A stretch of DNA of 24,804 nt. Origin: a virus. The notes under the pieces were generated by a model. That model worked only from the letters and a program-made list of their open reading frames with translations. It did not search any database and had not been told where the DNA came from. Each line of letters starts with the position of its first letter. Within the stretch, counting starts at the first letter, position 1. This document shows, one piece after another, positions 1-22,367 of the stretch. The position numbers and the translations under genes were made by a program. The DNA lies in the IMG/VR virus record IMGVR_UViG_3300041403_000450, positions 1-24,804 of that record; one strand, given 5' to 3'.

Positions 1-720
1 AATCTCGCTGGACTGGTCACTGCCAACAGTGCTTAGATTGTTGACACAAACAATCTCGACAACATCACCAGCAGTCAGGGCTGTATTGAAAGTAACCGTG
101 ATACCATCTGTTGCAGTGTAATCTACATCACGTTGCTGTAGAACACCGTTAGCATAGACATTCTCCCTACCTGTGGAGTATTGAAGAGTACCACCCGATT
201 CACCAGAACCAGAGAATACAGTCTGACTAGCGGTAGCAGTAGTTCTCCATCGGGTGTATCCAGGAATATCTGTATCGCTAAGTCGGTTATCTACATACTG
301 TTTGGTGACTGCATCAGAGTCGTTATTAGGGATACCAAGATTAGTGACTTGGTTACCTCCCATATTGAGATCACCAGCAAATGGATTGCTACCATCCGTT
401 AGGACTGCATTGTTGGAAATCTCCTGTGTTACATATAGAGTTTGCAGATAGTTAGCGTTTAGGTCCTGAGCACGAATGCTGGAGCCTGGAGAGAATACTA
501 CCTCCTGATCATCAATGTTAGTCGATCGGTAGATGCGGATTTCGGCCCCAGAAGCAGGGGCAGAATCCATTTGTATTTGAGTATCTGTAGCAAAAGAGAA
601 GGCAGTGGTATTTGTGTCATCCAAAGACACTAGTACGTCAGACTGCTCTAAGTATGGAAATGTGATAGAAAAGAGGACGGTAGATCCGTCCCCTACGTAG
701 TTGTTCTCAGTTACCGCCAT
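1..720 (-). CDS. Tail fibre protein, N-terminal part (T7 gp17-like; cut by window edge)
   Basis: The ATG is at 720 and the frame stays open to base 1, giving 240 residues; the rest lies outside the window. The start, MAVTENNYVGDGSTVLFSIT, and the later NPFAGDLNMGGNQVTNLG and DAVTKQYVDNRL segments match the N-terminal particle-binding domain of T7 gp17-type fibres and the short collar repeat that follows it. In this family the N-terminus docks the trimeric fibre on the tail and the distal part binds the host receptor. It overlaps the 3' end of the gp16-like gene by 14 nt, so translation is probably coupled; no strong Shine-Dalgarno is visible. Its last-gene position matches T7. The receptor-binding part is not visible, so nothing can be said about host range. 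Confidence 0.9.
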   Translation of the reverse strand, partial: MAVTENNYVGDGSTVLFSITFPYLEQSDVLVSLDDTNTTAFSFATDTQIQMDSAPASGAEIRIYRSTNIDDQEVVFSPGSSIRAQDLNANYLQTLYVTQEISNNAVLTDGSNPFAGDLNMGGNQVTNLGIPNNDSDAVTKQYVDNRLSDTDIPGYTRWRTTATASQTVFSGSGESGGTLQYSTGRENVYANGVLQQRDVDYTATDGITVTFNTALTAGDVVEIVCVNNLSTVGSDQSSEI

Positions 721-3700
721 TAGCGTATGTCATGAATGAGGTACGTTGCTGCTCATTGCGTAGCTTCTGCATCTCAGCCTGCTTGGCCTGGTGATCCCGC
801 ATGCGCTTAGCGAATGTGGTACCGGGGTTGGCTAGCTTGTTAGCTGCATAGTTGTTTTGAGCATAGTTGTAGTAAGCCTTGAAGACCTTCTCGTAGAACT
901 CCTGCTGAGGTACCTTGATGTTCTCAGCTGCTCCCTGTTCAAACATAAGAGTAGCCGTTTCATCATCTCCCCCTTTACGCAGGTTAGGTCCGTTCTCACT
1001 GTAGAAGTAATCTTTCAGGACCTGCTCCATAGTGCGGTTACGATATAGTGGCAGCTTAACGGATGTTGCAATCTTTGTGATTGAATTCCGATCCTCCCAA
1101 GTCAAAGGCATTCCTTGGAAGTGCTCTGGTGGTTGCTTTGGTTCAATCCCATACTTCTCAAACGCCTTGTTGATTGGTGTACGTGATTGCTTGCTAAGCC
1201 GGATCGGCTGAGCGAAGTTAAACATGCGAACACCGACGCTAAAGGGGGACTTATCGAAGCCATCAAAGGTCAGCGCTTCACCAGTGGTTGTGTCCAGCTT
1301 CATGGGCGCAGCTCCAGGCATTACGCCAGATGCCATCTTACGCATCAGTCCACCAAGACCTTGACCACTCATTCCCCATAGATCATCCATCAAACCTCGG
1401 GTCTGACGGGCTTCAGGGGAGATAATCTTAGCGGCCTGGTCCACAGCAATTGGGATAGGAAGTAGACCACGGGTGACCATACCACGTAGGTACCTCTCAC
1501 CAGTAGCTCCAAACTTCTGATCACCTGTAGCAGCGGCCATAAGAGCCTTCATATTGTCCCACATACCCAGGGTTGTCTCGAACACGGAGTTCTTGACTAC
1601 ACTGTTCACAGCGATGGCTGCAGTTTGGGTCCAGGGGTTGAAGTTGCGCTTCTGAGGTTCACCCATCTCACGGAACAAGTGGCCAAGCTCCATGCCCATA
1701 CCGAGGGCTTGAGCAAAGGGCTGTGCCCATGCATAGGAGATACGGTGCTCACCAAACCCAAGTGTGTAGGGCTTGCGCTGCTGATTGCTTTGGAAGAAGT
1801 CTCTACGACGATCAGGAGACATAGGACCAGCACCGTTACCCATGTCGAAGTAGCCCGCCAGCATCGCTGGGAGCATCATGATGTAACCAATGCGGAACTT
1901 ACCACGCTTGTACGCCAGCTTGTGTATCTGAGCAGGGGTTAGTGCTTCCACGCCCTTCTGCTTGACCAGATCCTCCAATCCCTTCCACTCTTGATCGAAC
2001 TGACGCAGAGCAATGTTGATACCAGGGGTAGCCCCAATGGCCTCGTCAAAGATCTTAGCGGGAGTCTTGAGGAATATCATACCGGTGAGCCCCTTGATGC
2101 CCGGTGCATCCGCAACTTTGTTGAGAGCTCTGAAGAATGGGCTATTGTTCAGCTTGCCACTACGGAAGTTGAAGTAGTCACCATAGTCCTTGATCTCCTT
2201 GTAGAGAGGATGATCCTTGTTGACGGCACCTAGTTCATCGAACATGGAATCCATCAGCTTCTGCTTCTTCTCCATAATCTCAGCAGAACGCTTAGCGATG
2301 GACTTAGATGTCCAGGGCTCATAGAAGCCCTCCAGGACCTCTGCAGCAGCTTCGCGGGTAGCAATGCTGTTGGCTGCCATGTACTGACCGATGTTCTCGG
2401 TCTTACCGATCCAGTCAGTAGGCTTACGGAGAATACCAAGCTGTGCAGCACGGCTGAAGTAGTCAGAGATAGACAGCATCATACTGCCCACAGGACCGAG
2501 GTTACCGGCCATCTTCTCACCACGGACAGCCTCTACCATCTCGAACTCTTCCGGCTTCATGGAGAGCTTAAGTGGCATGGTATCAGGCATCTTCCAGATC
2601 TTGCCCATGACATCGTTCATGTGCATGATGGTCTCCTGCACAGACATCATCTCTGCAGCAGCCATTGCGCGCATCTTGCGGTCCAAGCGGCCAAAGCCGA
2701 TACCGCCTACGCCCTTCATCACTGGCTCAACGGTTGTCCGCATTGTCAGGTTGACGAAGTTCTCAGCGATGGTCTTAGGATTAGCCAGGACTGTACGAGT
2801 GTGCAAGGCATCCACACCACGACCAAGAGCGGTGAGCAGGGTGGAGAATATCGGAGTAGCCTTGGCGATGTCATCAGCAGCTTCAAGAGCATTGAAGGCT
2901 TGATCCATCTGGCGCATCATGGTGCCAGTCACATCCTTGCCATTGCGGATCTGTTCGATCACTTCATCGACTGCCTTGTACAAAGCCTCTGACGATTTGT
3001 CAGACTTAACGATGTTATCAGCAACCTCTTGTGTGAACGTAGCAGCGTTCTTGGCCTGCATCTTGTGGCCGATGAACGACCAGGTACGGGCAGCATCCCG
3101 CTTGAGCCGCATCATGGACTTCATAACCTGCCACTGACGATCAAACTGATCAGCAGTACTTAGACCGTTGAATGCAGCTTCACGACGTACGGCTCCAAGA
3201 TCCTTGAAGTTCTTACGACCATTGGTGAGATAGTTATCGATCAGCGTAAGGGCTGAGCCGATCTTGGGGTTCTCACGGAGGATAACACCCTTACCTTGAA
3301 GGGTCTCGATCTCTTCACCAAGCTGAAGGCGTAGACCGTTCTCGAAGGCTTCGTAGTCACCACCACCCTTGATGTAGGCTTCAATGGAAGGGAGTGTACG
3401 TAGATTGCTCTTGGCTAGGATAGCCTTGTACTCAGCACTACGTGGATCAAGCTTCTCGATTCCCTTGAACGCATCTATCTCAGCAAAGATCTCATTGGTC
3501 TTGCCTTGGATGTAGTTACGGGCTGCTTCAGGGCTCTTCGCGTGGTAGAGGAACTCGTTCTGAGATACTGGATAAGGATCACGCTCCAGGGTTCCCTTGA
3601 CGGAGGCTCCCTGATCTACACCAAGCTCCTTGCGGGGCTTGACTGTGACCAGCTCATCCATCTCGTAGCCCATCTTGGTGGCCATCTTACGAGTAGTGGC

Positions 3701-6007
3701 CTCGGGTACCATGAAGTTCGCCTTGCTCAAAGCCTCTGATACACCCTTAGGATCGGAGAGAAGTTCAGCTGCATTCTTAGCCTGGAAGTCATTTAGGGTA
3801 CCCTTGAAGAACTTCTCCGACAATGCTTCGTGGCTCATCTGACGACGACGTAGCGCCTCCGTCATTTCAGCCCACTCATTGGACATCCCCTTTGAAGCCC
3901 CTAGAATATCCAAGCCACCAGTATCAATGACTTCCCCAGCATCAACATCAAAGACGGCTTTCTGATCGAAGGCAGAAGCCAGCTCCTCTGCCGTCTTAGA
4001 GTCAGGCACATTGCGGCTGATCTCCATTTGGAGCTTACCGGTTTCAGGATCGATCCATCCACCAAGGTAGGTATCATCACGGCTGAGGATCTTCTGGTTG
4101 CGCTGCATCCACTCACCAAGCTGCTGGGTAATTGCTTGGCGGTTCTTGCTGAGCTGAGCACCTCCTTCACCGAATCCCACACCACGCATGGTGGGTATGT
4201 CCAGTTCGATCTCTTCAGCATCAATGCTAACCATGAAGCCAGACTTGGGCGACTCAAGGTTGTAGGGGTTGACACTGAATCCCTCTGGGTTCTCAGCAAT
4301 AAGCTTGGGCAGGTCCTTGTGAGGCACCGTAGAAGATGCCTTGACTTGGGTAGGCTCAGGAGTAGCAGTGAAATCATAGGGCTCCAGCTTACCGCCTTCA
4401 CCTACAACTGCGTACTGATAACCATCAATCTCTTCGGAGAAGCCAGCACGTTGATATAGACGGGCTCTGGTGTTGCCACCACGACGCTCAGCAGCTTTGC
4501 TGATCTGAAGGTCTTCAGCAGTGTCTGTAAGGGGCTTAGCACGTACTACCGTGCCAGGCTCCATATCAGCTGCGATGTTCTTGAACTGAGTGCGAAGCTC
4601 AGCCAGCTCAGGAACATTCTTGGAACCGTTCTCTACATCCCAGACGATATCGTAGACATCTCTACCAAGGTTCTTGTCTGCTTCAGGTGTGGCGTACCAA
4701 GTGATAGGTGTGCCCTTGGAAGTACTGAGGTTGAACTCCAGCTCTTCAGTGGGAAGCTTAGGGAACTCCGTGGGAGAACCCATATGTGGGACAAAGCGGT
4801 TACCAGGGGTAAACAGCTCAGGATAGTCAAGGGCTACTTCATCCCAGGTAGCGTCATAGCCCGCCTCGCTGGCGGCTTTACGGTACATGTAGATGTCGAA
4901 CTCCTTCTGCTCCAGGGCAGATTGAAGCTCCGTGATGTCCTTCTCGTTTTTGATGATCTCATCAGTGATCTGCTTGGCCTGTCCCATGGACATGTGGTCA
5001 GAAGCACGCACGAGCTCTTCAGGATCACCCCCGTATGCAGCAGTGTTAGCGTAGTCGTCAACCGTCTTGATGGCCTCGTTACGGGCCTGGATGGTCTCAG
5101 GGTAGGCAGCTTTCGGCCCATCCACTTCAGGGGCAATCTTGGGGCCACCTGGTTTAAGGGAACGGAAGAACGGGTTGGAATCCAGAATAGTCTTGACTGC
5201 TGGCTCAAGTGCATTGGCTACACCACGCACAGCAGAGCCCATAAGGGCGCCTTCAATACCCGCCATAGTACGGGCACCGAGTGGGTTGTCCTCGATACTC
5301 GAGATGAGCTGTGATATGGTTGTGGTGGGACCAGATAGGCCTTCAGGGGCATTCTCTGCCACCCACTGGGCGAGTTGGTTGGTAAGGGATTCTTCATCAC
5401 CATGTGTAGCTACGAAGTCCTCGAGGAAGTCTCCACCCATCGTAGCGACCACTCCAGCGCCCTTAATGGGGTTATGACGTGCTGCTACCAGATAACGTAC
5501 CAGAGTGCGGGCGACAGCGCCTACTGTGGTATCGTTCTCTGCGATAAGGTTTGTACGGGCTGTGTATAGGTCTTTGCCAGTGACACCTTCTATGATATCA
5601 GCTGGTAGGTTGACCACACCCTCCACAAGGTCTTCCACACCGCCAAGGGTGGCACGGAGGCCTTCTTTCAGGACAGTACCAGCAGGACCGGTTTCAGGTA
5701 ATTGGATCTTCTCCGACTTCTTCCGGTTCTCCTCTCCCATACCCCATAGGTTTGTGCCGAGCATTTTGTCAACACCCTGGACACCGGACTTAACCCAGCC
5801 AGGAGGCTCATCAAACCTATTGTCTTCCTGTTGTTGTTGCTGTTGCGGTTGTTCTGGCTGAGGAGTTGGTTCGGCTGGGGCTACTGATGTGTCACCATAG
5901 GCGGCTTTCAGAGCCTCCAGCCTTTTTTCTTCAGCCTTTGGATCATAATATGAGGGATCAGCAGGCACCGAACCGGTGTACTGTTTCCCGTCTCCATTCA
6001 AAGGCAT
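707..6007 (-). CDS. Giant internal virion/ejection protein (T7 gp16-like position)
   Basis: This 1766-residue protein sits between the gp15-like protein and the tail fibre, the place of T7 gp16 (about 1318 aa), which forms part of the inner core and is ejected to help DNA cross the envelope. The N-terminus is proline/glutamine-rich with a six-Gln run (residues 55-60). No transglycosylase motif is seen at the N-terminus, unlike T7 gp16; that domain is in the neighbouring protein. Residues about 430-540 contain MEPGTVVRAKPLTD and RARLYQRAGF, resembling a GNAT or LPD-type domain. Residues about 640-700 contain YLGGWIDPETGKLQMEIS and DQKAVFDVDAGEVIDTGG, the style of large polyvalent protein-associated domains. 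Residues about 1070 to the end are Met/Ala-rich and amphipathic, beginning TVLANPKTIAENFVNL. The ATG at 6007 follows the previous stop by one base. Assignment by position is firm; domain calls are inference. Confidence 0.85.
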   Translation of the reverse strand: MPLNGDGKQYTGSVPADPSYYDPKAEEKRLEALKAAYGDTSVAPAEPTPQPEQPQQQQQQEDNRFDEPPGWVKSGVQGVDKMLGTNLWGMGEENRKKSEKIQLPETGPAGTVLKEGLRATLGGVEDLVEGVVNLPADIIEGVTGKDLYTARTNLIAENDTTVGAVARTLVRYLVAARHNPIKGAGVVATMGGDFLEDFVATHGDEESLTNQLAQWVAENAPEGLSGPTTTISQLISSIEDNPLGARTMAGIEGALMGSAVRGVANALEPAVKTILDSNPFFRSLKPGGPKIAPEVDGPKAAYPETIQARNEAIKTVDDYANTAAYGGDPEELVRASDHMSMGQAKQITDEIIKNEKDITELQSALEQKEFDIYMYRKAASEAGYDATWDEVALDYPELFTPGNRFVPHMGSPTEFPKLPTEELEFNLSTSKGTPITWYATPEADKNLGRDVYDIVWDVENGSKNVPELAELRTQFKNIAADMEPGTVVRAKPLTDTAEDLQISKAAERRGGNTRARLYQRAGFSEEIDGYQYAVVGEGGKLEPYDFTATPEPTQVKASSTVPHKDLPKLIAENPEGFSVNPYNLESPKSGFMVSIDAEEIELDIPTMRGVGFGEGGAQLSKNRQAITQQLGEWMQRNQKILSRDDTYLGGWIDPETGKLQMEISRNVPDSKTAEELASAFDQKAVFDVDAGEVIDTGGLDILGASKGMSNEWAEMTEALRRRQMSHEALSEKFFKGTLNDFQAKNAAELLSDPKGVSEALSKANFMVPEATTRKMATKMGYEMDELVTVKPRKELGVDQGASVKGTLERDPYPVSQNEFLYHAKSPEAARNYIQGKTNEIFAEIDAFKGIEKLDPRSAEYKAILAKSNLRTLPSIEAYIKGGGDYEAFENGLRLQLGEEIETLQGKGVILRENPKIGSALTLIDNYLTNGRKNFKDLGAVRREAAFNGLSTADQFDRQWQVMKSMMRLKRDAARTWSFIGHKMQAKNAATFTQEVADNIVKSDKSSEALYKAVDEVIEQIRNGKDVTGTMMRQMDQAFNALEAADDIAKATPIFSTLLTALGRGVDALHTRTVLANPKTIAENFVNLTMRTTVEPVMKGVGGIGFGRLDRKMRAMAAAEMMSVQETIMHMNDVMGKIWKMPDTMPLKLSMKPEEFEMVEAVRGEKMAGNLGPVGSMMLSISDYFSRAAQLGILRKPTDWIGKTENIGQYMAANSIATREAAAEVLEGFYEPWTSKSIAKRSAEIMEKKQKLMDSMFDELGAVNKDHPLYKEIKDYGDYFNFRSGKLNNSPFFRALNKVADAPGIKGLTGMIFLKTPAKIFDEAIGATPGINIALRQFDQEWKGLEDLVKQKGVEALTPAQIHKLAYKRGKFRIGYIMMLPAMLAGYFDMGNGAGPMSPDRRRDFFQSNQQRKPYTLGFGEHRISYAWAQPFAQALGMGMELGHLFREMGEPQKRNFNPWTQTAAIAVNSVVKNSVFETTLGMWDNMKALMAAATGDQKFGATGERYLRGMVTRGLLPIPIAVDQAAKIISPEARQTRGLMDDLWGMSGQGLGGLMRKMASGVMPGAAPMKLDTTTGEALTFDGFDKSPFSVGVRMFNFAQPIRLSKQSRTPINKAFEKYGIEPKQPPEHFQGMPLTWEDRNSITKIATSVKLPLYRNRTMEQVLKDYFYSENGPNLRKGGDDETATLMFEQGAAENIKVPQQEFYEKVFKAYYNYAQNNYAANKLANPGTTFAKRMRDHQAKQAEMQKLRNEQQRTSFMTYANGGN

Positions 6008-6008
6008 G

Positions 6009-9000
6009 TCATCGAATTCCTAGGATGTTACGGATACGTTGTGACCACTCGCGCTCAGCTTGAGGGGTCCAGGGTAGATCGTGTGGCATTGGGATATCAA
6101 CTGCAAGCCCGCCATCAGGAGAAGCAGACTTATAATGGTAGCTGGTGGCAGAGTGCTCCCCATCTTCCACTGAGCCAACTTTAATCCCTTGAGCTTCAAG
6201 CATAGCGATAGCTTGATCACGCTGCGGTGTAGTGGCAAAGGCGATGTGCTCATGGTAGTTTACTCCACCATGATCATCGCGGAACCCACCATGGGAGCGA
6301 TCACCAGTCAAATACTCAATTACTTGTAAATTCTGCTTGCCACCCATAGCCTGTTGGTCATGTGGGTTGCTAGTTTTACCAGTCCTATTCAGATAGTCAT
6401 TGACTACCTTGCGAGCCTTGGACATGTGCCGCTGGTACGACTTGTTATTGTAGGCTCCCCAGGCACCAAGGCCTTGGCTATCAAGGATCGACTTAGCTGC
6501 ACGGACATTGTTGCCGAGATCATAGAGATCCTCGTTGCTCTGCAGTCCAAACTGACGTAGACGCTGTGGTCCCATACCACCGATCATGTTGATCTGGAAG
6601 GCACCATAGCTTAGGTCTCCTGTGTCTGGGTTGTCATTGAGAGCCCTGGGACTACCCATACCTTCTCCCATGGCAATGGCCAGCATTTGCACCAGCTTGT
6701 CCTCTGGTACTCCTGCAGCAACCATCTGACTCACAACGTGCTCAGGGTTGGTGGGATCAGTGGCACCTTGGGCTGCACCCATTTGGAGGTGCTGTGGATC
6801 AGGTCCCACTTGAAGCCGCTGGAGATCTCGCCTTGCGGCGGCCTTCTGTGCGGTTGTAGCGTTACGTGACTTCAGAACATTCCAGGTTGTAGGTGCCTGC
6901 TGCTTGACGATCTGAGCAAAGCGAGCATACTTCTCAGCAGCTGTACCATAGTTGCTCAGCTTACCGAACTCCTTCTCGACACCCGCTGTGAACATCTGAG
7001 CACTCTCGTGGGTCATGCCCATGGAGCGAGCCCAGATTGCTGCTGTACCGTAGCTGAAGTCAGGGGAATCAGATCCAGGAGGATTCCACTTGAAGCTGCC
7101 AGAATCGCCAAGGAGGCGGATCTGTGCACGGATGATGCTGGGCACTGTGCGGCCTGTAGCATCGGCCACAGCGAGGACTGAAGGGGGAATATAGTTGGGT
7201 TCCGTCTCCATCCGGTTGATCTCTGCTGCTGCCTGGGATCCACTCTCAAAGACGGCAATGCTGTCAACATCACCAGCCTTGATACCAAGCTTGCGCATCT
7301 GTAGGGAGCTCAGGTCACCAACGTAGTCAGTGTTATCCAGCTCAGGGATCTTACGCTGCTTGGCTGTGATCTGGTTCCACTCCAGCTCTACCTTGTCCTG
7401 ACTACGCAGACCTTCAGCGGCGCCTGCAACGTTACCAGTGAGGTAGCGCTTAGGAGCTTCACCAGATAGGTGTGTCCTGGACCATTCGCTGAAGAGGTTG
7501 GGGATATCTGCAGCGTCTTCGGTGATGTCAATGTTTGGATTGGACCGAAGGTAGTTGACGAAGTCTCGCATCGCTGCAGATTTGGCAAGCTTGAGACGCT
7601 CATCTGGGTTGATGAAGTTCTCTGCCTGTATCTCCGGTGTGAGCACACGCTCGAGCTCGAGATCAATGTTCTCGAAGACAACGGCGTGCTTCTCCTTGAT
7701 AGCCTTGCCGAAGTCAGCATACTTCATCAGGTCAGCACGCTGAGCCTCGGGGATGTTGGTATCAGCCAGAAGCTGCTCAGCCGTCTCTGCTGCATCCATG
7801 GGATCCATCAGCTCCAACTTGCCCTTGAGCTCCTTGAAGCGGTTCTGGGCTATCGTTGGGTTGTACAGCTTGGTCAGCATCTTACTGCGCAAGACAGCAT
7901 TCTCTGGACCGGGGAACATCATCTCCACCTCGTCTCTAGCACCGGCTAGGCGCTCCTGAGCATCTTCATAGGTCATATTGCCGTTGACAATATCAGCTAT
8001 GACAGAGTCTGTGAACTGGGTGGCTGTTGTGTCCTTCTGCTCCTGGTACTGCTTGTGAGCCTTCTCCTCGTAGGCTTCCAGCTTGGCATCCAGATACATC
8101 AGAGGTCTGGCCTGGCCCTGGAATAGGGTGCGCAGGTCTTGCTCTAGGGCTGTAGCTCTATCAAGCTGGTCAAAGGGTGTAGCCAGGATCTTGGAGGCAC
8201 CTAGCTTGGCCAGCTGCATGGAGGCTTCAACTAGGTCACCACCACGAGATGCTGTCATCTCACGGAGCTGCAGTCCTAGCTCTTCAACACGCTCGGTTGG
8301 GAGCATTCCTTCAAGGGAATCAAATGCACCGTAGGCATCGTTATCGGCCTTGTTCTCCAGTTGTTGCTTGTACTGCTGGGTGCGCTCCTGTGTGCCACGA
8401 GCACGGATTCCCATGTCAGCAGCATTAGCTTGACGATGGAAGTACTTGTGGACTACAGCAGGGTTGATAGCTACAAGACCTTTCTCCTTGAAAAAGTCAC
8501 GGCGAGCTTCGCGTAGGGCGTCAGCTTCGACGAGTGCAGGGTCAGCACCAGGCGGCATATTAGCCAGTGCTTCCACCACCTTGCGGTTAGCATAATCTGG
8601 ATAGTCAGATGCTGCAGCTTGAGCCAGTCCCTCTTGGACCCCGTATAGGTAGAACTTGTTGCTATTACGGATGTGGTTAGCATCGTTCTGAAGCCCCGCT
8701 TTTTCGAAGGCATCTGCGGTAGCCATAGTCCGCTCAAGGCCAGAGACCTTGGCGTTGTTGATGGCTCCCATGTTGTCCAGAACATGCTGGAACTGGGTTG
8801 GGTCGGCCTGTGCGGCCATCATACCTTCAACTTGGAGGTTGTAGTTCTCCTCGTTGATGCGGTTGGCTTCAGCCTCCCAAAGGGATTTACTGAAGCTCAG
8901 TGCAGTCTTACCAAGTTCAGTCACAGCACGGACATCGTCCTGCTGCATCTGCATTTGCATGCGACCTACTTGGTCTTTATTCTGCAGCTCAACGTTAGCG

Positions 9001-9311
9001 TTGTTGATACGCTGTTCGTTAAGACGGCGAGCATTATCCAGCTTGGCCTGGCCACGTTGATCCTTGAGTCTGTTCTTCCACTCAGCTGCACGAGCTTGTT
9101 GCTCGAACATCAGCTGTTGGTTCGCCATTGTCTGGCGCTGGTTCTCAAGTGTATTCTGGTTGCTCAGCTCGTTGTTACGGTTGACCTGCTGCTGGACTGC
9201 TGCAGCATTCTCTTGGTAGTTGGAGTAGATCTTATTGACTGCTCCAGACATATCTACGGCACGGCCTTGCACACCGCCGCGCTTGGCCTGCCTGCCTCTG
9301 TACTGTGTCAT
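6009..9311 (-). CDS. Internal virion protein (gp15-like) with C-terminal lytic transglycosylase and DD-peptidase-like domains
   Basis: The protein has 1100 residues; T7 gp15 has about 747. Residues 25-130 are Gln/Asn-rich and coiled-coil-like, and 130-850 are mostly helical, as expected of an ejected core protein. Residues about 858-965 look like an SLT-type lytic transglycosylase: a probable catalytic Glu883 in AMGEGMGSPRA, then SYGAFQIN (901-908) and GAWGAY (949-954). Residues about 1003-1100 hold a second, histidine-rich domain with YHEH (1019-1022), SYHYKS (His1059) and GGLAVDIP (Asp1072), resembling metal-binding M15/VanY-type peptidase folds, though the His-Asp spacing is longer than the classical motif. 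The likely role is local opening of peptidoglycan during DNA ejection. Start and upstream stop overlap as ATGA. The core role is well supported by position and size; the exact specificity of the last domain is uncertain. Confidence 0.87.
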   Translation of the reverse strand: MTQYRGRQAKRGGVQGRAVDMSGAVNKIYSNYQENAAAVQQQVNRNNELSNQNTLENQRQTMANQQLMFEQQARAAEWKNRLKDQRGQAKLDNARRLNEQRINNANVELQNKDQVGRMQMQMQQDDVRAVTELGKTALSFSKSLWEAEANRINEENYNLQVEGMMAAQADPTQFQHVLDNMGAINNAKVSGLERTMATADAFEKAGLQNDANHIRNSNKFYLYGVQEGLAQAAASDYPDYANRKVVEALANMPPGADPALVEADALREARRDFFKEKGLVAINPAVVHKYFHRQANAADMGIRARGTQERTQQYKQQLENKADNDAYGAFDSLEGMLPTERVEELGLQLREMTASRGGDLVEASMQLAKLGASKILATPFDQLDRATALEQDLRTLFQGQARPLMYLDAKLEAYEEKAHKQYQEQKDTTATQFTDSVIADIVNGNMTYEDAQERLAGARDEVEMMFPGPENAVLRSKMLTKLYNPTIAQNRFKELKGKLELMDPMDAAETAEQLLADTNIPEAQRADLMKYADFGKAIKEKHAVVFENIDLELERVLTPEIQAENFINPDERLKLAKSAAMRDFVNYLRSNPNIDITEDAADIPNLFSEWSRTHLSGEAPKRYLTGNVAGAAEGLRSQDKVELEWNQITAKQRKIPELDNTDYVGDLSSLQMRKLGIKAGDVDSIAVFESGSQAAAEINRMETEPNYIPPSVLAVADATGRTVPSIIRAQIRLLGDSGSFKWNPPGSDSPDFSYGTAAIWARSMGMTHESAQMFTAGVEKEFGKLSNYGTAAEKYARFAQIVKQQAPTTWNVLKSRNATTAQKAAARRDLQRLQVGPDPQHLQMGAAQGATDPTNPEHVVSQMVAAGVPEDKLVQMLAIAMGEGMGSPRALNDNPDTGDLSYGAFQINMIGGMGPQRLRQFGLQSNEDLYDLGNNVRAAKSILDSQGLGAWGAYNNKSYQRHMSKARKVVNDYLNRTGKTSNPHDQQAMGGKQNLQVIEYLTGDRSHGGFRDDHGGVNYHEHIAFATTPQRDQAIAMLEAQGIKVGSVEDGEHSATSYHYKSASPDGGLAVDIPMPHDLPWTPQAEREWSQRIRNILGIR

Positions 9312-19230: not shown

Positions 19231-19405
19231 GGGGTTTCTCCAGTTCTTGTTTGAGGTGTCGAACAACAGAAACTTGACCAGCCCGGTAGGCTACCTCCCT
19301 AGGGTCCAGCATGTGGTCCGGGTAGGTGTCCGGGTAGAGCTGCTCAAGTTTGTTGATGAGGCGCTTGAGTTGAGCTGAGCTGAACTCTAAGGTGGGGTCA
19401 ATCAT
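19223..19405 (-). CDS. Small 60-residue conserved-looking protein after RNR
   Basis: The ATG overlaps the RNR stop as ATGA, so translation is probably coupled. The 60-residue product (MIDPTLEFSSAQLKRLINKL...AYRAGQVSVVRHLKQELE) is predicted helical with a YPDTYPD loop. I do not recognise a function. A CCCTAGGGA sequence resembling that before the capsid gene lies inside it (19297-19304), so the region may also carry a promoter for the head genes. Confidence 0.75.
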   Translation of the reverse strand: MIDPTLEFSSAQLKRLINKLEQLYPDTYPDHMLDPREVAYRAGQVSVVRHLKQELEKPHV

Positions 19406-21642
19406 TGAGGTTTCTTCTCAGAGAAGAGGCACTTATCCCCGTCGCAAGCCGCTGGGCCACTGGCCTCGTGGGCAGTTCCATAAACTGACATAGCCAGAGC
19501 AAAGTCGTCAGTGATACGACGCTCCAGTACATCACGTTCCAGCTGCTCGTATGTCTCCCGATCAATAGGTTCAAACGGGAGGCGAGGGAATGTTTCATTG
19601 GCATCGAAACGAGCCAGCAAGGCGGCAGAGATGTATCCTTCATCAGCTTGGATAGCCTTGTGGATGAGGGTAGACAACTCTTCGATCTCGTGCTCGCGAT
19701 ACTCCAGCGTTGCTGAAGTGTTGTGGGTTGTGTAATACTTCTGCACTTGCATGTAGAAGTCCCACTGTGCGTTGATTCCAAAGCCGTTAATGTTGTACTG
19801 GTCGCAGCCAGGAAGATCAGCCCAGGGTGTCTGGACAGGGATCTCTACAAGCCACTCAGTGCAGCGGGGATCACGAGGATCGTCCAGCAGAGCACCTGTC
19901 TCGTCACGATCTGACTGAGACGGAATGATCTTGTAGCCGTAAGCCTCACAAGCCAGAGCGACAGGATCGTTCTTGGCAAAGGTGATGCGACGGATAAACC
20001 GTGCTGCCTTGGGCGGGTGCCAGCCAGGAGCAGCCCCGGTGAGAAGGGACTTGGTTCCGGCAGGTTGTACGGTGGTGAAACGGTTGGGGATGCGCAGTCC
20101 GTGGCGGTTGCAGTACTCAGTGACTGTCTCCTCTACGGTACGACGCCAGAAGTCAAGGTAGTTGCTCTCGACAATGCGATAGCCAAGACCTTCAGGACCA
20201 TTGGGGCGGCCCTTCTCCCACCAATCAAGCCAGCCTGCTCCGAATGCCTTCACGAAGAAGTCGAAGAGACCAGTGAAGCTGACACCAATGATGGGATCGA
20301 CTTCACGGCTGAACTGATAGCGGGGAACTTTGAACTCATGATGGAGCAACGCTGCGGCTGCAATTGCTCCTGCCTTGAACGCACGATGCTGGGCATCCCA
20401 GTCATTGGGATCCAGCTGGTTCAAGTGGATCTCAGCAAGGTTACAGTGGAAGTCCTTGCCAAGTATTTCACCACAGGGGTTCAAGCCGTAGCGACCCATG
20501 CGGTGTTCAATGTGGTCAGCACCTAGATCCTCGAGGTATCCTGCTGCGAGATCTGGGGATGCCTCGTAGAGATAGAGGAACTGGCGCTTCTTGTCGTCAG
20601 TATCCAGGAAGTCAACGCTACTCCGAGCAATAGCCTCGGGGGCGTACTGGATAGCACCTTCTCCTGAATAGAATTGCTTGGTAACACTAGCTTTAACCTC
20701 GTCAAACGTAGGCTTGGCGTGGAATACCCGAGTGTGATTAGCCATGCGTAGCGCATCACGCTCAGGATCAATCCGCCACTTACCATCTTCGCCCTGTTGC
20801 CAGAGATTGTCTTTTGCTACTGCTGCTGCTTCATCGTCACCGTGGAACTGGCGCATGCCAGCAGAACGGCGAACGTTACCTGCCACAACGGCGAGGCTCG
20901 ATTCATCTAGCAGTAGGCAGCACTCAACAGAAGTGAGCTTACGACCGTGTGCCTTGGAGAGAATTTCTCCAGCACGTCGATAGAAATGGGCGAGCTTAAC
21001 TGGGTTGGCCACCCCACCGAAGCCGGCAATGGGTGAGCCAGGAGCCCGGACATGTGATAGATCGATTACTACCTTTTCGATCTTGTCCGGGCCACAAGCT
21101 AGATTAAGGAGTGAGAGGAAGGCGTCACACCAACCTTCTCGTGAATCGCCAACGGTAACAATGGCTTCTTCCTTGCTAATGGCCGCAATCGTGTGCTCAA
21201 CTGGGTTTTCTTCTTCCCCAATTTTCTCCAGGATATCTAATGTAAAGTTTTGTCTCACTACTGGGAGCTTCTCAAAGGTGCGGGGCTCAATGATTGCTCC
21301 GGTACCAGAGCCCATCATCAGGAGCTCCATCTGCAGGCTGAAGGCCTCGAGATCTTCCAGGTCAGTGTTGGTGCAGTTGTAGGCACCACTGAAGTTCTTC
21401 TGCTGCTCAATCCAGGGGGTGCCACCTACCCACAGCCATCGGCCAGAGGGTAGAGCCTTGAGCTCAGACATCTGCTCACGGATCAGAGCAGCTTCATCTT
21501 CTTCCAGGTGTCCCACACGGGTAAGGCCAGATACACACCGCTCAACGGTGTCTTGCCATGTCTCTTTACCGTTCTCTGTGCGGCGTGAGTAGGTGCGGAA
21601 GTAGACGGGATTAGCGCAGGGTGCTTGCTTGGGAAACGACAT
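19402..21642 (-). CDS. nrdJ: Class II (adenosylcobalamin-dependent) ribonucleotide reductase
   Basis: The 746-residue protein matches monomeric class II reductases such as Lactobacillus leichmannii RTPR (739 aa), which reduce ribonucleoside triphosphates using a cobalamin-derived thiyl radical. Visible features are SGRWLWVGGT then FSGAYNC (Cys90, first redox cysteine), MMGSGTGAII (109-118), the NPCGE active site with radical Cys390 and Glu392, the partner Cys400, and a C-terminal C-x4-C pair (Cys733, Cys738) that relays reducing equivalents. QPAGTKSLLTGAAPGWHP is the phosphate-binding loop region. Use of vitamin B12 chemistry is common in cyanophages because their hosts make or use cobalamin-type cofactors. 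The gene sits after thyX/mazG and before the head genes and supplies dNTPs for replication. Confidence 0.97.
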   Translation of the reverse strand: MSFPKQAPCANPVYFRTYSRRTENGKETWQDTVERCVSGLTRVGHLEEDEAALIREQMSELKALPSGRWLWVGGTPWIEQQKNFSGAYNCTNTDLEDLEAFSLQMELLMMGSGTGAIIEPRTFEKLPVVRQNFTLDILEKIGEEENPVEHTIAAISKEEAIVTVGDSREGWCDAFLSLLNLACGPDKIEKVVIDLSHVRAPGSPIAGFGGVANPVKLAHFYRRAGEILSKAHGRKLTSVECCLLLDESSLAVVAGNVRRSAGMRQFHGDDEAAAVAKDNLWQQGEDGKWRIDPERDALRMANHTRVFHAKPTFDEVKASVTKQFYSGEGAIQYAPEAIARSSVDFLDTDDKKRQFLYLYEASPDLAAGYLEDLGADHIEHRMGRYGLNPCGEILGKDFHCNLAEIHLNQLDPNDWDAQHRAFKAGAIAAAALLHHEFKVPRYQFSREVDPIIGVSFTGLFDFFVKAFGAGWLDWWEKGRPNGPEGLGYRIVESNYLDFWRRTVEETVTEYCNRHGLRIPNRFTTVQPAGTKSLLTGAAPGWHPPKAARFIRRITFAKNDPVALACEAYGYKIIPSQSDRDETGALLDDPRDPRCTEWLVEIPVQTPWADLPGCDQYNINGFGINAQWDFYMQVQKYYTTHNTSATLEYREHEIEELSTLIHKAIQADEGYISAALLARFDANETFPRLPFEPIDRETYEQLERDVLERRITDDFALAMSVYGTAHEASGPAACDGDKCLFSEKKPQ

Positions 21643-21805
21643 ATGCTTGGTTGAGTTGGTTGACTTTGGGATCGACTAGGTGAAAGGAAGAGACCCAGCC
21701 GATCTCTTCCCCGACATGTATTTCTACACAGTCTTCATGGGTAATTATTTCCGGTTGCGGCGGCAACAGCTGGGTAGACTCCAACGAAGATTCTACGGAT
21801 TGCAT
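21611..21805 (-). CDS. Possible small overlapping protein between thyX and RNR
   Basis: A 64-residue frame (starting MQSVESSLESTQLLPPQPEI, with DCVEIHVGEEIGWVSSFHLV in the centre) spans the 92-nt gap between thyX and the RNR gene, overlapping thyX by 71 nt and RNR by 32 nt. AGAGAAG lies 6 nt upstream of the ATG. The acidic, protein-like composition of the non-overlapping part supports a real gene, but the long overlaps are a caution. I recognise no family. Confidence 0.4.
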   Translation of the reverse strand: MQSVESSLESTQLLPPQPEIITHEDCVEIHVGEEIGWVSSFHLVDPKVNQLNQAYVVSQASTLR

Positions 21806-22367
21806 CAGCTACTTCTCTATGTTCTAGTTGGGTTGCGGGGTCACAGCGGACCTTGAAGTAATGGATCCACGAGCGGACTGTACCTGACATGTACATCCGA
21901 GTGGGTGTTGATAGTGGAAGCACGCGGCGTGCGCACTCCTTGGCCACACCAGCATCCAGCATGGACTGGTAGAGGTCGTAGCCTGCCAGGTTGTGGCGTG
22001 CGATAGCCTCCTGGTAGCGCTCTACGAGCTGCTCTGGGAGGTCGTCTGTGCTGTTCTGCCTGTTCTTAAGGTCTTGTCTACGCAGAGCAGGCACGACGGG
22101 CAGTGGGGCCTGAGCATAGCGTTGGCTGAACTCTTGGAAGGAGAAGCTCCGGTGGCGTAGTATTTGGGCTGCGACATCACGTTCGGTTTCAATTTCAACG
22201 CACAGCGAGGCCATCTCAAATGGTGACCAATGCGCGTGGTTGATTAGGTACTTGATGAGTTTGGGGGCTGTGGCATCGTTGTTCTCGTTAGCTGGGTTCG
22301 AGACACGTGCCATCTTGGCGATCAACTGGTCGCCTTCAGGGGTAGCCCATACAAGCTTTACGTTCAT
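21735..22367 (-). CDS. thyX: Flavin-dependent thymidylate synthase ThyX
   Basis: The 210-residue protein carries the ThyX signature RHRSFSFQEFS (residues 71-81, RHRx7S) followed by QRY, preceded by HAHWSPFEM (45-52), and the C-terminal substrate-binding region SGTVRSWIHYFKVRCDPATQ then QLEHREVADAI. ThyX makes dTMP from dUMP using FAD, NADPH and methylene-tetrahydrofolate and does not consume folate as ThyA does. It overlaps mazG as ATGA and works with RNR to feed dNTP synthesis. Confidence 0.97.
   Translation of the reverse strand: MNVKLVWATPEGDQLIAKMARVSNPANENNDATAPKLIKYLINHAHWSPFEMASLCVEIETERDVAAQILRHRSFSFQEFSQRYAQAPLPVVPALRRQDLKNRQNSTDDLPEQLVERYQEAIARHNLAGYDLYQSMLDAGVAKECARRVLPLSTPTRMYMSGTVRSWIHYFKVRCDPATQLEHREVADAIRRIFVGVYPAVAAATGNNYP

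Follow-up and report, generated by a model that had tools for sequence, protein, structure and literature searches.

The LAS zinc peptidases, among them lysostaphin, the D-Ala-D-Ala peptidases and the hedgehog proteins, form a major class of wall hydrolases, and to our knowledge no circularly permuted branch of them has been recognized. In phage T7, the glycan-cutting domain borne by the virion is located at the N-terminus of gp16, whereas in the virus considered here it is located on the protein occupying the gp15 position. An SLT domain on a gp15-like protein is known from gp35 of phages K1E/K1-5 (PMC8954989), and this placement is hence not new in principle; the word "peptidase" appears nowhere in the text of that review. 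The open-access literature searched mentions circularly permuted wall peptidases of the NlpC/P60 type (PMC6403190), and no description of a circularly permuted LAS branch was found in it.

The window analyzed here is the full 24,804 nucleotides of a 24.8-kb viral contig with a T7-type gene order, in which genes for the portal, the capsid assembly protein, the capsid, the tube, the nozzle (gp12) and gp13-like and gp14-like proteins are followed by an ORF of 1100 aa in the gp15 position and one of 1766 aa in the gp16 position. Upstream of these lie genes for ThyX, ribonucleotide reductase and a 5'-3' exonuclease, in a layout like that of cyanopodoviruses, and the relatives of the proteins encoded by the contig are chiefly from cyanophages. 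The ribonucleotide reductase (19402-22367, minus strand) bears a B12-dependent class insertion domain and, being adjacent to ThyX, belongs to a cyanopodovirus-like nucleotide cassette. The best explanation of these features is a podovirus akin to the cyanopodoviruses.

The 1100-aa ORF (6009..9311, minus strand) encodes a putative internal virion (ejection) protein, located between gp14 and gp16 as is gp15 of T7. Over residues 59-333 it matches its gp15-position counterpart in Synechococcus phage S-CBP2, and its residues 1-849 returned no match to the PDB up to an E-value of 1, so that homology to solved gp15 structures was not found. Following the T7 model, and with gene order as the one line of support, the protein is probably ejected into the host. 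The neighboring gp16-position protein (707..6007, minus strand) yielded no transglycosylase domain in Pfam, PHROGs or PDB searches, in line with a first-pass annotation that had seen none in it.

The same annotation had placed an SLT-like domain at the end of the gp15-like protein, and this assignment is upheld. Residues 864-951 (6459..6722, minus strand) match the Pfam SLT_3 family (PF18896) with an E-value of 2e-7 when the whole protein is queried and of 8e-9 when only its C-terminal part is, the scores being 31.7 and 36.3 bits against a curated cut-off of 27. All the motifs originally quoted for this domain are present, with Glu883 within GEGMGS (882-887), SYGAFQIN at 901-908 and GAWGAY at 949-954. 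The region also matches C-type lysozymes in the PDB, aligning Glu883 (6663..6665) with the catalytic Glu of the lysozyme WES motif, and this putative catalytic acid is an invariant column (E34 of alignment A9), unchanged in 10 out of 10 relatives that include P-SCSP1, S-CBP3 (L073) and the tectivirus WheeHeim. The second catalytic Asp of C-type lysozymes was not found, since SYGAFQIN has Ser901 where lysozyme TDYGIFQIN has Asp, which fits a putative lytic transglycosylase-type active site with Glu883 as its predicted acid. Gene 26 of the Streptomyces tectivirus WheeHeim (L104:1456-2124) is annotated as a glycosyltransferase, yet it shares 39.8% identity with the SLT_3 domain of the window and, judging from this similarity, is probably a virion transglycosylase.

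Beyond the SLT_3 domain, residues from about 997 to 1100 (6012..6323, minus strand) make up a second domain that matched no Pfam family, M15 included. The motifs YHEH (1019-1022), SYHYKS (1057-1062) and GGLAVDIP (1067-1074), on which the first-pass annotation had based a zinc DD-peptidase reading, are each present, but the order of the metal motifs had been missed. A first scan located relatives of the domain at 32 loci; in a second scan of viral contigs 157 of 220 pattern matches were relatives, of which the best 80 were retained. Public viral contigs contain, in all, about 75 distinct cores that preserve TGD, N[YA]H[ED]H, SxH and AxD[VI]P, indicating that the motif set is not due to chance. 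T-G-D, N-x-H-x-H, S-x-H, A-x-D, P and E are invariant in the family. In 52 aligned members, a His/Asp set is invariant or nearly so: both His of H1020-E1021-H1022 (6246..6254), a putative catalytic His plus third zinc ligand, His1053 (6153..6155; conserved in over 90% of alignment A5), which aligns with the His of hedgehog G-H-H-A, and the putative zinc ligands His1059 of SYH (6135..6137) and Asp1072 of AVDIP (6096..6098), both invariant, which align with the two ends of hedgehog H-x6-D. The domain closes gp15-type proteins and is also present in tape-measure-like proteins (with Tape_meas_lam_C in L044) and tail lysozyme proteins (S-SKS1), and a scan of bacterial genomes with a strict HxH pattern returned no relative of it.

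The profile of the C-terminal half of this domain matches hedgehog N-domains in the PDB with an E-value of 1e-5 across the zinc motif G-x-H-A-x-x-S-x-H-Y-x-x-x-A-x-D, and it scores 34 against M15_3 (represented by E. coli MepK and by sequences taken from viral contigs), 10 standard deviations above shuffled sequences (10.4 ± 2.3). On these profile comparisons, hedgehog/M15-type LAS zinc peptidases are homologues of the half that carries H-x6-D, even if no Pfam M15 or hedgehog model scores above cut-off for the family (the best among members being HH_signal, at 0.012). LAS enzymes, however, have HxH or ExxH downstream of H-x6-D, whereas HxH lies upstream of it in every member of the family. No conserved His is found downstream, where gp15-type members stop about 25-30 residues past the Asp, and the third ligand is therefore most plausibly supplied by the upstream HxH. 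The simplest reading of this arrangement is a circular permutation that shifted HxH to the N-terminal side, and a circularly permuted LAS peptidase, with a predicted activity, is our preferred reading of the domain.

A circular permutant should have both of its halves related by homology to a canonical protein, but with their order exchanged. Because the N-terminal half found no match among M15_3 tails in profile comparison, a more closely related family in canonical order was looked for. Searching with the C-terminal half identified one in L221 (GRHAPGSYHYSGRALDI ... KPVELITGRTDPAGHGDHVHVAY), and further sisters were then found in gp13 of Synechococcus phage Bellamy and in about 50 contigs (26 distinct). 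The Bellamy gene (gene 13; L226:1099-3495) is listed as hypothetical, encodes a canonical LAS-like domain with no Pfam match and lies three genes ahead of a baseplate hub/lysozyme gene. The C-terminal half of the permuted domain matches the sister profile with a P-value of 1e-9, and the N-terminal half gives a suboptimal match to the sister C-terminal tail; against a doubled sister profile, a single alignment spans the permuted N-terminal half, the join and the C-terminal half. With a broader family profile and permissive gaps, the best place for the N-terminal half in the full sister profile is the C-terminal DHVHVAY tail (p 0.0025 for the tail and 0.007 for the full profile), and under stricter gap costs these values become 0.015 and 0.027. 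In hhalign, 12 of 200 shuffles aligned as well with the sister tail (about p 0.06), which is suggestive. Both halves thus find their counterparts in the canonical relative with their order swapped, with support from these alignments that is good for the C-terminal half and moderate, and dependent on settings, for the N-terminal half.

A bacterial scan with the pattern of the C-terminal half returned only two homologues, both in canonical order and both from Bacteriovoracaceae. In these proteins, a helix-like stretch after the Asp, similar to the C-terminal helix of the permuted form, precedes EATHIHVSY, on which basis the permutation cut appears to sit between the C-terminal-type helix and the HxH strand pair. 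The two homologues (L277 and L278, from metagenome-assembled genomes) are putative lipoproteins, with VWGCETT and VFGCETP near their starts, that carry a canonical-order hedgehog-like zinc domain; the Bacteriovoracaceae are a predatory group, and a wall peptidase there would be of interest.

The copy of the domain in the window departs from its family in one respect. His and Asp are 6 residues apart in 75 of 78 cores, and two of the remaining cores are regular-expression artefacts with a true spacing of 6 (SLHYSNQAFD and SYHYSNRAFD). The window copy, with 12 residues, is the sole true exception, owing to an insert in the interval from His1059 to Asp1072 (about 6 residues; 6111..6128, minus strand). 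The insert is also present in the identical contigs L001 and L002, making an assembly error unlikely, and no obvious duplication was seen by eye in the surrounding DNA. The family could be one of permuted LAS peptidases in which the window copy has lost or changed its metal binding through the insert, leaving SLT to work alone. This reading draws on the uniqueness of the spacing and on the lower confidence at which the loop is modelled, near 72 in an AF2 model of the window tandem in which most of the second domain exceeds 90. It must be set against the retention of every ligand residue in the window copy and against a dN/dS of about 0.14 for the second domain, no different from the SLT and N-terminal parts, in a single pairwise comparison with L003 where dS (1.5) is near saturation. 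Furthermore, the His-Asp spacing varies across LAS enzymes, being short in M23 and of six residues in M15. A loss or change of metal binding is rather unlikely, although this is the alternative that retains most weight, and it is possible that the insert alters the activity of the window copy.

Structure prediction bears on a second and more doubtful alternative, in which the domain would share the H-x6-D half with LAS enzymes without being a permuted enzyme, acting as a wall-binding or structural zinc domain with HxH serving another purpose. The AF2 model of the second domain of a relative (L015) reaches a pLDDT of 95.4 and a pTM of 0.87 and describes a short fold of 99 aa with few predicted strands, which speaks for this alternative. 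Sequential Foldseek searches of the PDB matched no LAS structure, a result to be expected of a permutant and equally of a non-LAS fold, and the weakness and setting-dependence of the N-terminal match also leave room for this reading. On the other hand, HxH is conserved as strongly as H-x-D, sits within a predicted strand and lines up with the sister DHVHVAY in the register that a permutation predicts, all of which make a non-enzymatic role rather improbable. The matches in the PDB search, mostly aminotransferase-like, were dismissed as chance, with E-values above 0.08, and against BFVD only S-CBP3, S-SKS1 and MedDCM-S28-C3 were matched with E-values below 0.001. Lastly, a canonical-order M15 DD-peptidase of the ordinary kind, for which the identical residue types and the weak MepK, M15_4 and HH_signal matches of some members might speak, is rejected as highly improbable on the reversed motif order, the early end of gp15-type members with no conserved downstream His, and the lack of a Pfam M15 match in the window copy; the zinc DD-peptidase proposal hence holds at the superfamily level, through the LAS homology of the C-terminal half, but fails as an ordinary M15 assignment, with the missing sequential LAS fold match as a further point against it.

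A clue to the function of the putatively permuted LAS domain comes from its fusion partners, which vary among phages and comprise SLT_3, SLT, Phage_lysozyme2, Glucosaminidase and GH19 domains, and this recurrent fusion to glycan hydrolases argues for a role as their wall-cutting partner. Among the S-SKS1-like tail lysozyme proteins (L027-L037), near-identical permuted domains lie behind differing catalytic segments, with Phage_lysozyme2 in L027, SLT in L028 and no Pfam hydrolase match in L029, L031 and L035, a pattern that would fit an exchange of the glycan-cutting module among close relatives. In the mechanism that we propose, the ejected gp15-position protein would reach the periplasm, where the SLT_3 transglycosylase/muramidase would cut glycan strands via Glu883 and the LAS zinc peptidase, with its chain permuted so that the HxH strand pair (H1020, H1022) comes first and H-x(n)-D (H1059, D1072) second, would act alongside it, the two domains together opening a hole through glycan and stem peptides. 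Taken as a whole, the interpretation of this gene product as an internal virion protein in the gp15 position, equipped with an SLT_3 domain and a permuted LAS zinc peptidase, is one that we regard with reasonable confidence as correct. The sequence analysis supports the domain identities, the residue conservation, the LAS homology of the C-terminal half, the sister family in canonical order and the repeated hydrolase fusions; zinc binding, catalysis, bond specificity and ejection are the predicted components.

The broader proposition, of a virus-borne, circularly permuted branch of hedgehog/M15 LAS zinc peptidases that is widespread in aquatic phages, has been combined on virion proteins with glycan hydrolases of at least five kinds and goes unnoticed in standard sequence and sequential fold searches, also appears likely. 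If true, the coexistence of a permuted branch and a canonical sister in related phages would allow the survival of an active site after relocation of the chain ends to be studied, and many "hypothetical" domains in tape-measure and ejection proteins of aquatic phages would acquire a function, as peptidases partnering glycan cutters. It would also constitute an example of a domain overlooked by sequential fold search.

Several known systems frame this proposal. The tandem is not unique to the window, as on sequence comparison it also sits, unrecognised, in the gp15-position protein of Synechococcus phage S-CBP3 (S-CBP3_0051, AGK86606.1), which shares the gene position and the C-terminal SLT/permuted arrangement, with 36% identity over residues 859-1099, but is annotated as hypothetical and has the normal H-x6-D spacing. 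In the Prochlorococcus phages P-SCSP1, the gp15-position protein likewise carries a C-terminal SLT but, unlike that of the window, ends there with no second domain. The converse is seen in L061 and L040, gp15-position proteins with the permuted domain in which SLT was not detected, and MedDCM-S28-C3 likewise yielded the second domain but no SLT. The P-SCSP1 phages, with SLT and no second domain, together with L061 and MedDCM-S28-C3, leave unsupported an initial suggestion that the pairing is specially suited to thick cyanobacterial walls. With the LAS superfamily at large (hedgehog N-domain, M15 MepK/YcbK, M15_3), the permuted family has in common the H-x6-D zinc motif and its preceding [G]H-A..S context, and it differs in carrying HxH before rather than after this motif and in having no curated M15 match. 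Its closest canonical-order relatives, the Bellamy gp13 family (GRHA..SYHYSGRALDI ... PVELI..GHGDHVHVAY), have HxH downstream of H-x6-D and occur in another protein context.
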